In this document: positions 3,285-32,526 of the stretch, in pieces
Position numbering within the stretch: the first letter of the stretch is position 1
Layout of the letters: every line of letters starts with the position of its first letter
Assembly (NCBI GenBank): GCA_020723385.1
Contig: DYIZ01000006.1
Location: 1 to 64,000, forward strand
Source of the DNA: Candidatus Aquidulcis sp.
GTDB lineage: Bacteria; Chloroflexota; Anaerolineae; Anaerolineales; UBA4823
Reading direction: 5' to 3'
DNA length: 64,000 nucleotides
The notes under the pieces: model-generated
What the model was told of the DNA's origin: nothing
What the model saw: the letters and a program-made list of their open reading frames with translations, nothing else
The model's database searches: none
Translations under genes and position numbers: made by a program

Positions 3285-3362
3285 ACCCCTATCCCCTATC
3301 CCTATTAAGGGACAGGGGATAGGGGGAGGGCGGTTGGCGCATTGACGCCTCCGCCCTCCCCC
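3285..3362. terminator. Double hairpin, bidirectional terminator
   Basis: Two overlapping hairpins share a G-run. The first pairs 3285-3302 with 3307-3325 and is a member of repeat family C (GGGGATAGGG units). The second pairs GGGGGAGGGCGG at 3321 with its complement ending at 3362. They lie between two convergent genes and are mutually exclusive. Confidence 0.7.
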
Positions 3363-3372
3363 ATCTCATTTC

Positions 3373-6300
3373 CTATCGGATGACAATTGGCAGGTAAATC
3401 TTCGGCGCATAGAAGATGTCGTCATACACAATGAACGACTCGTTGCCTGCCGCATCCCGGAATTGGATGTACACCCGGTAGATTTGCCCGGGGGCGCCTC
3501 CCAGCACCCAGGATTTTTGCATCGCCAACGGTTCCCAAACTGCCCCCTCGAAGCCTGGATCGTTGGAGATGCGCATCTCCACGCCTCCACTGATCGTGTT
3601 GTACTTCAATGCCAGCAGGCCTCCCAGGTGGGCGTTGGCCGATTCGGCCGCGCCGGGCAGCGGCGTGTCGCTCGAGCTGATATCGAGCGTGACGAACGCC
3701 GAAGCCGTTGTGGGAGCGCCGTCGTTGATCAGCATCGCCCCCGATGGCGGGTCAGGATCCTCTTTGGGCGTCACCGCCACCTGCTCGGTGTAATCCCCCA
3801 TGGCGTTGTCGAAGGCAGGCGCCAGCACCGCGTAGTATGTTTGATCGTTGACCACGCCTGTCATCGTGAACTGGCCACTATTGCCAATATCTGTGCCCAG
3901 CCCCAATGCATCGGGATCGGTGGATAGGTACAGGATCATCGTCGTGTAAGTTACCGGCGGCGTCCACCGGATGAGCAGCAATTGGTTGAGACCCTGGATG
4001 GTGAAGTGGCCAATCGGGCTGACCAGATCGTCGCGCGGCCAGAGAGGGTTGCGCCCCCCGAGGACTTCCGAGCCATCGCGCTCGCCGCCCCGGTCGGTAT
4101 CGGCGCGGCAGGGCAGTGTACCGTACTGGAATTCCTGGAGACTGTTTAATCCATCTCGGTCAGGATCCTCCAGGGCGTCATCCCGAGTCGTATCCAGCTT
4201 GCAGCGCAGCTCCCACGGGTCGGGCATACCGTCTTGGTCCAGATCATTGGCATCAGGGCCGTTGATCCAAAAACCGCCGTACCATTCGCGGGTCAGGAAG
4301 TTGAGGGAAGCATCCTGCCAGAAAGCGAACAGCCGTACGTTGTACGAGCCGCCAACGTTTGTCAGGCTGTAAAGGTTGGTGTAGATACCATCTCCGGCCT
4401 GAACGTCGGCATTGAGACCATCATCGAAAAGGAACAAGAAATCGGTTGTACCGGGTTTTTCGATGATGGCGAGCATGCCAGCCCCGGGAATCGCGCCGGT
4501 GCGGTCGAGCAGCACACCGACGATAGGCACGATATCGCCCGCCATGCCCTGGTTGTTGACGATGGGGAATAGGAAGCGGCCTTGCAGGACGATGTTCGTT
4601 TCCGCCGAGCCGTTCATCATCACGTCGTAGGGGCCGGCTGCAGGGGCGTCGCCCGAGCGGGGGATGCAGAAGGTGTGCATGGTACGCATCTGCCAGACGC
4701 CGGGGTCGGGGGCGGTGACGATGAGGACATCATCAAAAACGGAATTGCGAATGTCCCAATTGGCAGGGGGATTGCGCGGCGGGCTGATGGGGATCCATCC
4801 TTGCTGGGGATCAGCGCCCGGCGGCAGCACTTCGACATTCCGAATCGAGAAGGAGCAGCCTTCGTAATCCTCCTGCTTGCTGGCTGTGACCAGCCGCAGC
4901 ACATTGACGCTATCGTCAACGTATTGGGAAGCGTAGCGCCACTCGCCATCTGGGACTGAGATATTGTTGGTGTGGAATAGCCGCGCCGCGCCCTGGTTTT
5001 TGGTATCCAGGTAATCGTAAACGTTGTCGAGACCCAGGGGTCCGGGCAGCAGCTCAGCGGTGACGCGATCCACGAACTGCGGCGGCAGCCCCATACTCAA
5101 CAAAGTATTGATTTGATCCTGGCTGACCGGGGCACGCGTCCCGCCGGTGGTCGGTACAAAGGTGAAAGTCCCGCCGGTATCGGCGGCGATCTGCGCCAGC
5201 AGGGCGGCCGGTGACTCGCCGGAGAAGCCCACGGTGTCAATGACCACTCCTGAAGCGATCAATTCAGCCTGCACCGTAGCGTATAACGGGTTGACATTTT
5301 CTTCGCCGTCGCTGAGCAGAACAATGTGCTTGGGGTTGGTGTTGGCAGGCCCGGCTAAAAGCTGGTTTTTGGCGTCAACCAGCCCCGCGGCGATGGGCGT
5401 CCACGCACGAGCGGTGACGGCATTGATCGCCGTTTTGACGACGGCGATTGTGCCGGGCGTCACCACATCGGTGCGCGGCAGGTGAGTCTGGATGTCGAGC
5501 GGGCAGTTGCCATCCCCGCCGGGCAGACCGCAGCCGGGGGGATTGTCAATCCCCGAGAACGAGGTGACCAAAATCCGGTCGCCCGTGCGCAGCAGGTCGG
5601 CCATGACAGTTCCGGCTTTCTGCGCATTCACCAGCCGGGTGCCTTCACCAACGATGTCTTCCGTCGCCATCGAGCCAGAGCCATCGAAGACCAGGGCAAA
5701 ATCTGTATTGCCCGGATTGACGTACAGCAGCGCGTTGTTCTCGGTGTCGCACAGTGCGCCGTCCAGGCAGATTGTCAGATCCACGAAGGTGGTGCCGACC
5801 GTCTTGGTAGGCGGCAGCATAATCGCCCAGTATTCTTCGCCAACTTCCTGGAAAGACCCGTTGACGAAGGTGATCGGATCGCCCTCGGCGTTGGCAGAGA
5901 AGGAGGAGGCCAGCAGCCCCCGCACCGGCGCGCCGCCGCTGGTGACTTTGAAGCGCGACAGGAATGCAATCGGGCTGGCAGGCTCGCCCACCATGGCGAA
6001 GTTGGTCTGGCGCGGCTCGAGGATATCCAGCGCGGGGGTGACGCAATCGAAGCTGACATCGTATGTGTAGCTCGTGGCAAAGGCATTGACCGAGGCCACG
6101 ATACGGTCATAAACGCCAAAACCGGCAAACGTGCGGGCAAAGTCTTCGCCGATCCAGGCTGAGCGGAGAACGCTGGTAGACCCAAACGTGTCGGCGGCCA
6201 TCAAGTTGATGCCCAGGTGTGCGCCCGCCGCGCCGTCCACTTTAGCGGAGACGTAAGCGCAGCTCGCCTGCGGCTTCACCTGATAGTATTTGCCTGCCCA

Positions 6301-7455
6301 ATCATCGGGCGTGGTCTCACCGTTCCAGCTTTGCGGCCCAGACAGGGTGACATCCTGCGCCAGCGGGACCGCGCCGTAGGGATTGCCATTGTCGTCAGTG
6401 TAGACCAGCTCGGGCTGCGTGGTTGCATTGGCCCAATTCTTGGCCCAGTTGGCGGCGAAGAAGTTGACGAAGAACTGCTCTTCCGACACGCCAGGCTTCA
6501 AGGATGGGATCAGGGTGTTCATCACGTAGAGCGTGTCGGCGACATCGCAGGCTTCGTAGTGGTGGGCAAGCGCGTCCATGTGATGGTGCGGATCAGCGGG
6601 TGTCCACAGCACGCCGAGCTGTTCGATGAAGTATTTGTTGAAAATATTGCCGTAGGATTTGTCGTACATGCTCGTAACAGGGTTGTAAATATTACCCCCG
6701 TAGCCCACTGCATCCAGGGTGGCATCTACCGCGTCGGCCCCCAGGTCGGCGTAGCCTTCCACGAACTCGGCGTCGCCGGCGGCAGAACCGCTGTCATAAT
6801 TGGCTTGCAGGAAAGCGTAGCAACCACTGTCATAAGAATATTGGAGATAGTGCTGGAACTCGTGATAGACCGTCCACTGTCCCCCGCCGCCGCGGATGGT
6901 GGGTGAATCGATCCCGATCCGGCAGCTCCCGGAGGACGCCCAATAGGCGATGCCCGACCAACCGATGCCGTCTTCCATCTGGACGTTGATGCGGTCGCCG
7001 CAGCCGGTATCGTAGGGATGGTGGCCGAAAATTTCCCAGTAGCGCTGCCACGCTTCTCGCCCCCAGGCGGCCACTTGCTGAGCCTGGGCGTCGGTGTCAA
7101 TCCAGTGCATCAGCGTCACCGGGTTGCCATCCACGATGCGGGTAGCTGTAATGGGGTTGTTGGTATACCACACCCGAATGCTTTTCGAAGCGCCGCCGAC
7201 CATGAACGTTTCGATAAAACATTCGTCGAGGGTGACCCCGTCAATCACTGGGCCGCCGGCGCACGGTGCATCGGGCGCAGCGCCGCCTTCGGGTGTGCCA
7301 GCCGCCTGGACGACGGGTGGATCTATCGCCAATTGAGCCGCGCCAGGATCAGTCGCTGCCCGCGGCAGGCCCGTGATAAGGCCAATTGCGATGAACGCAA
7401 GAACAACCGCCGGGATGAGAAAGATCATGCGCGTTGATCGTTTACGAGTTGTCAT
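3373..7455 (-). CDS. Large secreted metalloprotease-like / VWA protein
   Basis: 1360 residues, exported by an N-terminal hydrophobic signal (about 8-30). In order: a zinc-metallopeptidase-like region with HEFQH near residue 198 and a downstream EGYAD that could supply the third ligand; a beta-rich segment; a von Willebrand A domain from about 580 with an intact MIDAS (DGSGS near 588, later LSDGEEN); a choice-of-anchor-like beta domain; Asp-rich thrombospondin type 3 calcium repeats ([17 protein letters not shown]); a fibronectin-III-like domain; and a final IYLPIVIR. Metallohydrolase followed by VWA resembles CLCA proteins. Start chosen from AGGAGG just upstream. Likely a cell-surface or released adhesin/protease; substrate unknown. 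Confidence 0.85.
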
Positions 7456-7862
7456 AGGATTCCTCCTTCACAATGTCAGAAATGGTTTGGTTTGCGGCAG
7501 TTCTCAGCGTGAAATCAAAATCACCCGCAAATGACCCACGAAAACCAATTCAGTGAATCACAAGTTCAGGCTTGTCGCGCGCGCTTTAGCGCAGGTAAAA
7601 GCGCTAAAGCGCATACTACGAACAGATTCGTGATTACTGAAATTGGATTTTGGCAAGCAGATCAATCGTGTATTCGTGCAATTTTCGGGGATAACTCTGC
7701 TGGCGCGAGTTTCATGTCGAGAAATGCTGGTAAATTGATGGCGGGGTCAAAGGAAACTTTTATACCCCAAGGTAATTGGATGTTAATTGTCCAATTATGA
7801 TAATCTTAGTCCTTTTTAATGCCTCTGTCAAGAAGTATTTAGAAATAACCCCCTCGCGTCCC
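7456..7862. other. Intergenic region with palindromic repeat
   Basis: About 400 bases, A+T-richer than the genes. Apart from the inverted repeat at 7581-7612, it holds an 89-codon open frame (7531-7800) that runs through the palindrome, has no clear ribosome site and no recognisable family, so it is not called as a gene. Confidence 0.5.
7581..7612. repeat. GCGCTTTAGCGC palindromic repeat, copy 1
   Basis: A perfect 12-bp inverted repeat: GCGCTTTAGCGC at 7581-7592 and its complement at 7601-7612. The flank reads GTAGTAT on the opposite strand. A second copy, with the same GTAGTA flank, is at 13744-13763, which marks a dispersed element. Confidence 0.75.
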
Positions 7863-32253: not shown

Positions 32254-32526
32254 ATGCGCAAACGATTGCTACTCTTGCTCACGCTGCTCACTTTGCTGAC
32301 GCTGTTCGTGAGCGTGGCGCGTGCCGCTGACAGCTATGACATATCCTGGCATGTTATCGGCGGGGGAGGCGGCGGGCCGGTCTCGGCGGGCGTCTACACG
32401 CTCGATGGAACCATCGGCCAGCCGGTAACGTGGACGGTCAGCAATGGCGCTTACGAACACTGCGCCGGCTTTTGGTGTACGGTGAATAACTTTTTCGGCA
32501 TTTTCTTGCCGATTATCCGGCGCTAA
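32254..32526 (+). CDS. Small secreted protein with FLPIIRR end
   Basis: 90 residues: signal peptide (about 1-25, leucine-rich), a repeat-type strand pair ISWHVIGGGGGG...GVYTLDGTIGQPV, a CAGFWC segment with two cysteines, and a C-terminal FFGIFLPIIRR. The perfect ribosome site AGGAGGTGA overlaps the upstream stop codon. The terminal FLPIIRR mirrors the IYLPIVIR end of the large VWA protein. Confidence 0.8.
   Translation: MRKRLLLLLTLLTLLTLFVSVARAADSYDISWHVIGGGGGGPVSAGVYTLDGTIGQPVTWTVSNGAYEHCAGFWCTVNNFFGIFLPIIRR

Follow-up and report, generated by a model that had tools for sequence, protein, structure and literature searches.

The locus considered here raises the question of what a bacterial protein that joins a metallopeptidase-like segment to a VWA domain, in the manner of the eukaryotic CLCA proteins, may be doing. 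It lies in the window, a stretch of 64,000 nucleotides of contig DYIZ01000006.1 from Candidatus Aquidulcis sp., and an earlier note on this DNA had proposed that its product is a bacterial counterpart of CLCA that could be a self-processing adhesin. The reading favored here, with a probability of roughly 0.6, is that the protein would be a secreted zinc endopeptidase of the surface or matrix, whose CLCA-homologous half, made up of the VWA domain and the beta-sheet domain (BSD), would serve as a module for different peptidase heads.

Gene and Domain Organization

The gene is a single open reading frame on the minus strand, which starts with ATG downstream of an AAGGAGG sequence and encodes 1360 amino acids; recomputation of the frame gave exactly the limits previously assigned to it, 3373–7455. 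The N-terminus resembles a signal peptide and, read by eye from the sequence, has no lipobox cysteine; the protein is probably secreted. Its parts are listed in Table 1. Upstream of the gene, at 7581–7612, the arms GCGCTTTAGCGC and GCGCTAAAGCGC form a perfect inverted repeat of 12 bases around an 8-base loop, and another perfect 12-base inverted repeat, directly after the stop codon at 3322–3362, is terminator-like without a clear T run.

Table 1. Features of the gene and of the encoded protein, with positions in the window and the basis for each assignment.
Feature	Residues	Positions	Strand	Basis
Whole gene	1360 aa + stop	3373..7455	(-)	ORF
Signal-peptide-like N-terminus	1-35	7351..7455	(-)	Read from sequence by eye
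Metallopeptidase head (likely)	78-345	6421..7224	(-)	Invariant HExxH + EG; NF045524 in relatives; AF2 model
HEFQH	198-202	6850..6864	(-)	Invariance; helix 134-146 of AF2 model
EGYAD, E233 as proposed third zinc ligand	233-237	6745..6759	(-)	E and G invariant
Jelly-roll, PPC/collagen-binding-domain-like	360-471	6043..6378	(-)	Foldseek + VIA, Z about 7-8, weak
IPT/Ig-like beta domain preceding VWA	473-582	5710..6039	(-)	VIA Z 10.6 vs plexin IPT domain
VWA domain with MIDAS	583-770	5146..5709	(-)	PF00092; MIDAS invariant
BSD-like region C-terminal to VWA	824-1066	4258..4986	(-)	TIGR00868 in relatives; hhalign 99.4%; two beta domains in AF2 model
Choice-of-anchor X	1009-1042	4330..4431	(-)	NF041940 39.8 bits, cut-off 25
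Ca-type (TSP3-like) repeats	1071-1145	4021..4245	(-)	Invariant residues; TSP3_bac in relatives
FN3-like domain	1146-1232	3760..4020	(-)	AF2; fn3 in 3/30 members
C-terminal Ig-like domain	1233-1349	3409..3759	(-)	AF2
C-terminal tail	IYLPIVIR + stop	3373..3399	(-)	Sequence; [YF]LP tail in relatives; genome-wide motif

The main alignment holds 30 proteins, namely the window protein and a selection of 29 relatives of 25–62% identity, all complete or nearly complete frames, two of them (L067 and L074) open at the 5' end. Further proteins of the same kind with HExxH (L075–L078 and L080) and four truncated or split ones from the 15 loci of the species-wide collection described below (L047, L049, L050 and L051) were kept out of it, and L045, which has undetermined residues, was excluded from the structure alignments and the later profiles. 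Eleven residues of the N-terminal and VWA parts are invariant in all 30 proteins: H198, E199, H202, Q205, E233 and G234, followed by D591, S593, S595, T686 and D716, which we take to be the MIDAS residues. The same holds for the Ca-loop residues D1097, D1099, D1101, E1108, D1119 and D1121, which belong to a DxDxDGMPDxWE...DxDxDGL pattern; TSP3_bac matches 13 of the 30 proteins at E ≤ 1, the window protein not being among them. PF00092 recognizes the VWA domain of the window protein above its cut-off (residues 587–767, E 1.9e-7). The HEFQH...EGYAD segment, the VWA domain with intact MIDAS and the calcium repeats described previously are thus all present, with their key residues invariant. The FN3-like domain described with them stands as a set of beta strands in the AF2 model (approximately residues 1151–1230), but Pfam fn3 matches only three of the 30 proteins and not the window protein. 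The choice_anch_X profile matches 28 of the 30 (E ≤ 0.1). A search of PDB sequences with the single window protein gave no match, and the fold list for the AF2 model of the C-terminal part consists mostly of multi-Ig/FN3 proteins with poor TM-scores, with a VWA chain at rank 9.

The N-terminal part is matched in three of 61 genomes, own genome counted, and at 15 loci in a species-wide collection, one titled as Acidobacteria and the others as Chloroflexi groups. The N-terminal profile has matches in 43 of 396 class genomes, which, like the counts given below for TIGR00868 and for CLCA_N-type heads in 400 phylum genomes, is a lower bound because few candidates were scored per genome. HExxH is present in the matched frame in 28 of these 43 genomes, while five hold fragments or a split gene only and another five (six proteins) hold a matched frame without HExxH, all of which turned out to be of C39 type; two of the remaining five were later typed, as C39 (G202) and as subtilisin (G174). 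A conserved operon that might explain the function was considered and rejected, as only the gene itself and overlying shadow frames recur in at least three of 22 loci. Other shared neighbor frames link two loci each, mostly the near-twin pair L042/L043.

The N-Terminal Head

Gluzincins (MEROPS MA(E)) combine an HExxH motif with a downstream glutamate in EGxA. At the sequence level both elements are invariant in the window protein and its 29 relatives, with a spacing of 16–31 residues between H202 and E233, which fits the gluzincin motif, and the head would seem to be an MXAN_6640-type gluzincin. The profile of the MXAN_6640 family of putative metalloproteases, NF045524, matches 15 of the 30 proteins at E ≤ 0.1, with a best E of 3.1e-19; none of the seven relatives scanned singly reaches the curated cut-off, 140 bits. 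The window protein itself is unmatched: a profile search, which had been suggested as a check of the N-terminal domain, found neither NF045524 nor any peptidase family in it. A literature search for MXAN_6640 returned no papers. Likewise, the protein shares HExxH and the EGxA glutamate with gluzincins but has no significant sequence match to a solved gluzincin; the head profile matched four PDB entries, all at E 0.56 or worse, namely two Vip2 chains, MITD1 and an HtpX homologue.

A zincin fold of the head is likely from these motifs, and the head would bind zinc with E233 as the proposed third ligand. The AF2 model of residues 60–585 (mean pLDDT 76.4) bears on this only in part, since it places HExxH in a helix, but the region of the proposed glutamate ligand falls in a block of low confidence (pLDDT 29–40, approximately residues 220–269), so that the geometry on which the earlier note had made its peptidase assignment depend is modeled on one side only. 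No zincin was among the matches listed in fold searches of this N-terminal model, where the listed matches concern the two beta domains behind the head.

Relation to CLCA Proteins

By profile comparison, the VWA-BSD half and its counterpart in CLCA are homologous, and only for this second half is the likeness real. TIGR00868 matches 29 of the 30 aligned proteins (E ≤ 0.1), and in five of seven relatives scanned singly it does so as one stretch from the VWA domain through BSD, about positions 304–308 to 666–684 of the profile, while in the other two the best stretch is the VWA domain alone. The best single matches over VWA and BSD have E values of 5.4e-19 for a gluzincin-type and 1.2e-28 for a C39-type protein. 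The window protein itself scores weakly against TIGR00868 (22.3 bits) and is absent from a search at E ≤ 1e-9. An hhalign comparison of the VWA-BSD half with L152 and L153, two proteins from Chloroflexota whose head is of CLCA_N type with HEWGH...DEY, gave a probability of 99.4% over 370 columns; the MIDAS of these two proteins looks degenerate because they lack DxSGS. The VWA domain of human CLCA1 (6pyo) was second of the 32 solved chains listed, with an E of 3.1e-17. The alternative that the CLCA match is due to the VWA domain alone was rejected on the TIGR00868 stretches through BSD and the hhalign alignment.

The head is a different matter. The CLCA consensus given in passages of PMC3650047 is HExxHxxxGxxDEY, and a DEY-type motif after HExxH was found in none of the 30 aligned proteins. 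Against nine CLCA_N-type domains from Chloroflexota the head reached an hhalign probability of 13.5% over 19 columns around HExxH, and its identification as CLCA_N was rejected on these two grounds. PF08434 has no match in the window protein, which says little, as it also misses the CLCA_N-type heads of L152 and L153; in 301 genomes it gave no match, and its control likewise matched nowhere. CLCA_N-type heads were found in at least 20 of 400 phylum genomes, in 10 of them at E below 1e-30. In the same 400 genomes TIGR00868 has a match at E ≤ 1e-9 in at least 104, nearly all in the VWA domain only. Six of these matches pass position 500 into BSD, and five of the six proteins carry an HExxH head, three of gluzincin type and two of CLCA_N type, while the sixth (G125) is without one.

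The window protein has in common with the CLCA family (human CLCA1 and CLCA2; TIGR00868) a putatively secreted HExxH head, a VWA domain with MIDAS, BSD with its DDGxxAD...DGIY segment and a candidate FN3-like domain, but differs from it in a head without DEY, in the jelly-roll and IPT-like domains before VWA, in the Ca-type repeats that follow BSD and precede the FN3-like part and in its bacterial C-terminal tail. The CLCA-like order of metallohydrolase, VWA and FN3 that had been read from this gene is borne out as an order of metallopeptidase, VWA, beta and FN3-like domains with a homologous VWA-BSD half, but not as to the head, which is not the CLCA metallohydrolase.

Peptidase Heads on the VWA-BSD Half

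A profile of BSD only was searched against 234 class genomes, 76 of which contain a match at E ≤ 1e-6. Of the 69 matches that reach E 1.7e-14 or better, 62 were classified, each a frame in a locus of its own, with heads called at E ≤ 1e-3; G247, G284, G089, G102:C154, G081:C797, G081:C1, G227:C686 and all weaker matches were left unclassified. VWA and BSD occur together in 39 of the proteins, of which 16 have a gluzincin head, 12 a C39-like head, four a subtilisin head and one a CLCA_N-type head, while no head was recognized in six, two of them (L062 and L063) incomplete. Since 15 of the 39 had been in the profile that found them, the figures for the other 24 are given as well: seven gluzincin, six C39, four subtilisin, one CLCA_N-type and six with none. 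Heads were thus recognized in 33 of 39 proteins with VWA and BSD, in 18 of the 24 outside the search profile, and in none of 24 controls with VWA only, which come from the TIGR00868 search of the phylum sample rather than from the class and were taken with 1500-base flanks, beyond which a far-off head might be missed. The six TIGR00868 matches reaching past position 500 were not used as such controls. From the varied heads on related halves, and their absence from the controls, the VWA-BSD half of CLCA would seem to be a module that goes with peptidases and whose heads can be exchanged.

The C39-like assignment (L086–L091, L178–L181, L188 and L216) derives from the six proteins without HExxH, all of which match Peptidase_C39_2 at E 0.006 or better, two of them above the cut-off, and keep candidate Cys, His and Asp residues as judged by eye. 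Of the four subtilisin heads (L183, L187, L208 and L209), the two that were scanned with Pfam (L183 and L208) match S8 at 7e-30 and 2e-37 and both have a PPC domain; the other two were called by a profile built from these. Within the gluzincin type, the head and the chassis stay together: in 29 proteins of this type, head distances and VWA-BSD distances correlate with r 0.93, a value reached in 0 of 2000 permutations.

BSD is also found without VWA, in 23 proteins, one of which has a subtilisin-profile match. Six were scanned with Pfam, which found alpha/beta-hydrolase matches in five and nothing in one. The hydrolase domains of these five (L189, L198, L203, L205 and L206) are lipase- or thioesterase-like, and four of the five proteins have propeller-type repeats. 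A sub-cut-off match to the Lamin Tail Domain lies near the N-terminus in four of six Pfam-scanned C39-type proteins. L062, the copy in G224, is split across two overlapping frames.

Possible Function and Alternative Explanations

In the favored reading, the N-terminal gluzincin head would cut protein substrates, with H198, H202 and E233 as predicted zinc ligands and E199 as the putative general base. BSD and the VWA domain, the latter by way of a divalent ion at its MIDAS, may hold the target or position the head, the Ca-binding repeats may stiffen a stalk, and the beta domains with the short C-terminal tail may anchor the protein in the envelope or matrix. Different peptidase heads would have been joined onto the VWA-BSD half as a module. 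The sequences themselves show the order of the domains, the invariant residues, the homology of the VWA-BSD half and the variety of heads on related halves; we infer secretion, zinc binding, proteolysis, targeting by MIDAS and a surface location.

If the protein processes itself, as had been put forward, the head would cut the polypeptide it belongs to after BSD and before the Ca-repeat stalk, setting free a head-VWA-BSD portion that works as an adhesin or a protease. Self-cleavage is possible by analogy. Passages of PMC6851300 give the full N-terminal part of CLCA1 as residues 1–695 and propose that its CAT-VWA product cuts the mucin MUC2, and according to PMC10669480, cleavage of CLCA2 at 708 requires zinc and the glutamate of HExxH. 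Where a TIGR00868 match includes BSD, it stops at profile position 665–702, near the CLCA site, a comparison that is approximate because these are not residue numbers, and a variable linker follows REWxGxF at a roughly equivalent place. However, this linker has no conserved sequence and varies in length, the head is of a different family than CLCA_N, and the same half also bears heads of other catalytic classes, implying that self-cleavage need not be conserved. On balance, a self-processing protein of the CLCA kind appears unlikely.

The VWA domain with MIDAS is a known adhesion module, and the protein might be mainly an adhesin, in which binding by VWA is the function and the head is a structural, inactive zincin. 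The incomplete confirmation of the head fold by the model would agree with this, but an inactive fold would hardly keep HExxH and E233 invariant down to 25% identity, and peptidase heads of other classes recur at the same place, which makes such a protein very improbable. Equally little credence is given to convergence, by which the common VWA and Ig-like domains were joined by chance with no kinship to CLCA. VWA alone matches many families and the window protein scores low against TIGR00868, but the single matches over VWA and BSD and the hhalign probability described above argue for kinship.

Evolutionary Implications

In a tree of 40 VWA-BSD segments, whose root is not known and in which eight forks are left open and some rows, among them one C39 and one CLCA_N-type row, are marked for long branches, the 16 C39 and subtilisin rows group with seven gluzincin rows with support 96/94, and the remaining nine gluzincin rows fall apart from this set. 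This placement suggests that gluzincin heads were replaced by C39 and subtilisin heads.

Prokaryotic CLCAs, Chloroflexi included, were already reported by Lenart et al. 2013 (PMC3650047), passages of which describe replacement of the CLCA head by Peptidase_M10 in Teredinibacter or by CHAP in Methanosarcina and favor a transfer from animals to bacteria. The idea of a bacterial CLCA counterpart holds for the VWA-BSD half, and such counterparts were already known. The proteins described here come from the same phylum as some of those in that source and share the CLCA half with them, but carry gluzincin, C39-like and subtilisin heads; no report of these heads on the CLCA half was found in those passages or among the open-licence full texts listed by literature searches. 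What is new is the wide spread of the VWA-BSD chassis with varied heads, which weakens the argument from rarity in bacteria and does not settle the direction of transfer. A more tentative proposal, at less than even odds, sees the VWA-BSD half of CLCA as a bacterial chassis for peptidase control, to which four or more unrelated peptidases (of gluzincin, C39-like cysteine, subtilisin and CLCA_N type) were joined in Chloroflexota. Animal CLCA would be one such combination, and a bacterial source is then possible in place of the transfer from animals to bacteria. The varied heads in Chloroflexota reopen the question of which way the proposed transfer between bacteria and animals went, and one half bearing proteases of three catalytic classes makes it possible to ask whether it binds the substrate, restrains the protease or is the first substrate.

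The C-Terminal Tail

A [YF]LP motif is found near the protein end in 24 of the 30 aligned proteins, and in some Chloroflexota this tail may act as a sorting signal not yet described; a literature search for a C-terminal sorting signal in this phylum listed nothing to the point. In its own genome the pattern [YF]LP[LIV][VI]x[RK]-stop has 70 matches, compared with three for the reversed pattern, and a frame of at least 200 amino acids ends at the motif in 26 of the 30 loci looked at. Within the window it occurs in the present gene and at 32503–32526. Across 201 phylum genomes the tail is patchy, with 33 vs 4, 29 vs 3 and 18 vs 0 matches in some genomes and background numbers in many. Five of six C39-type proteins end like LFINIARYLAGM or LQVNLSYALGR rather than with the [YF]LP tail.
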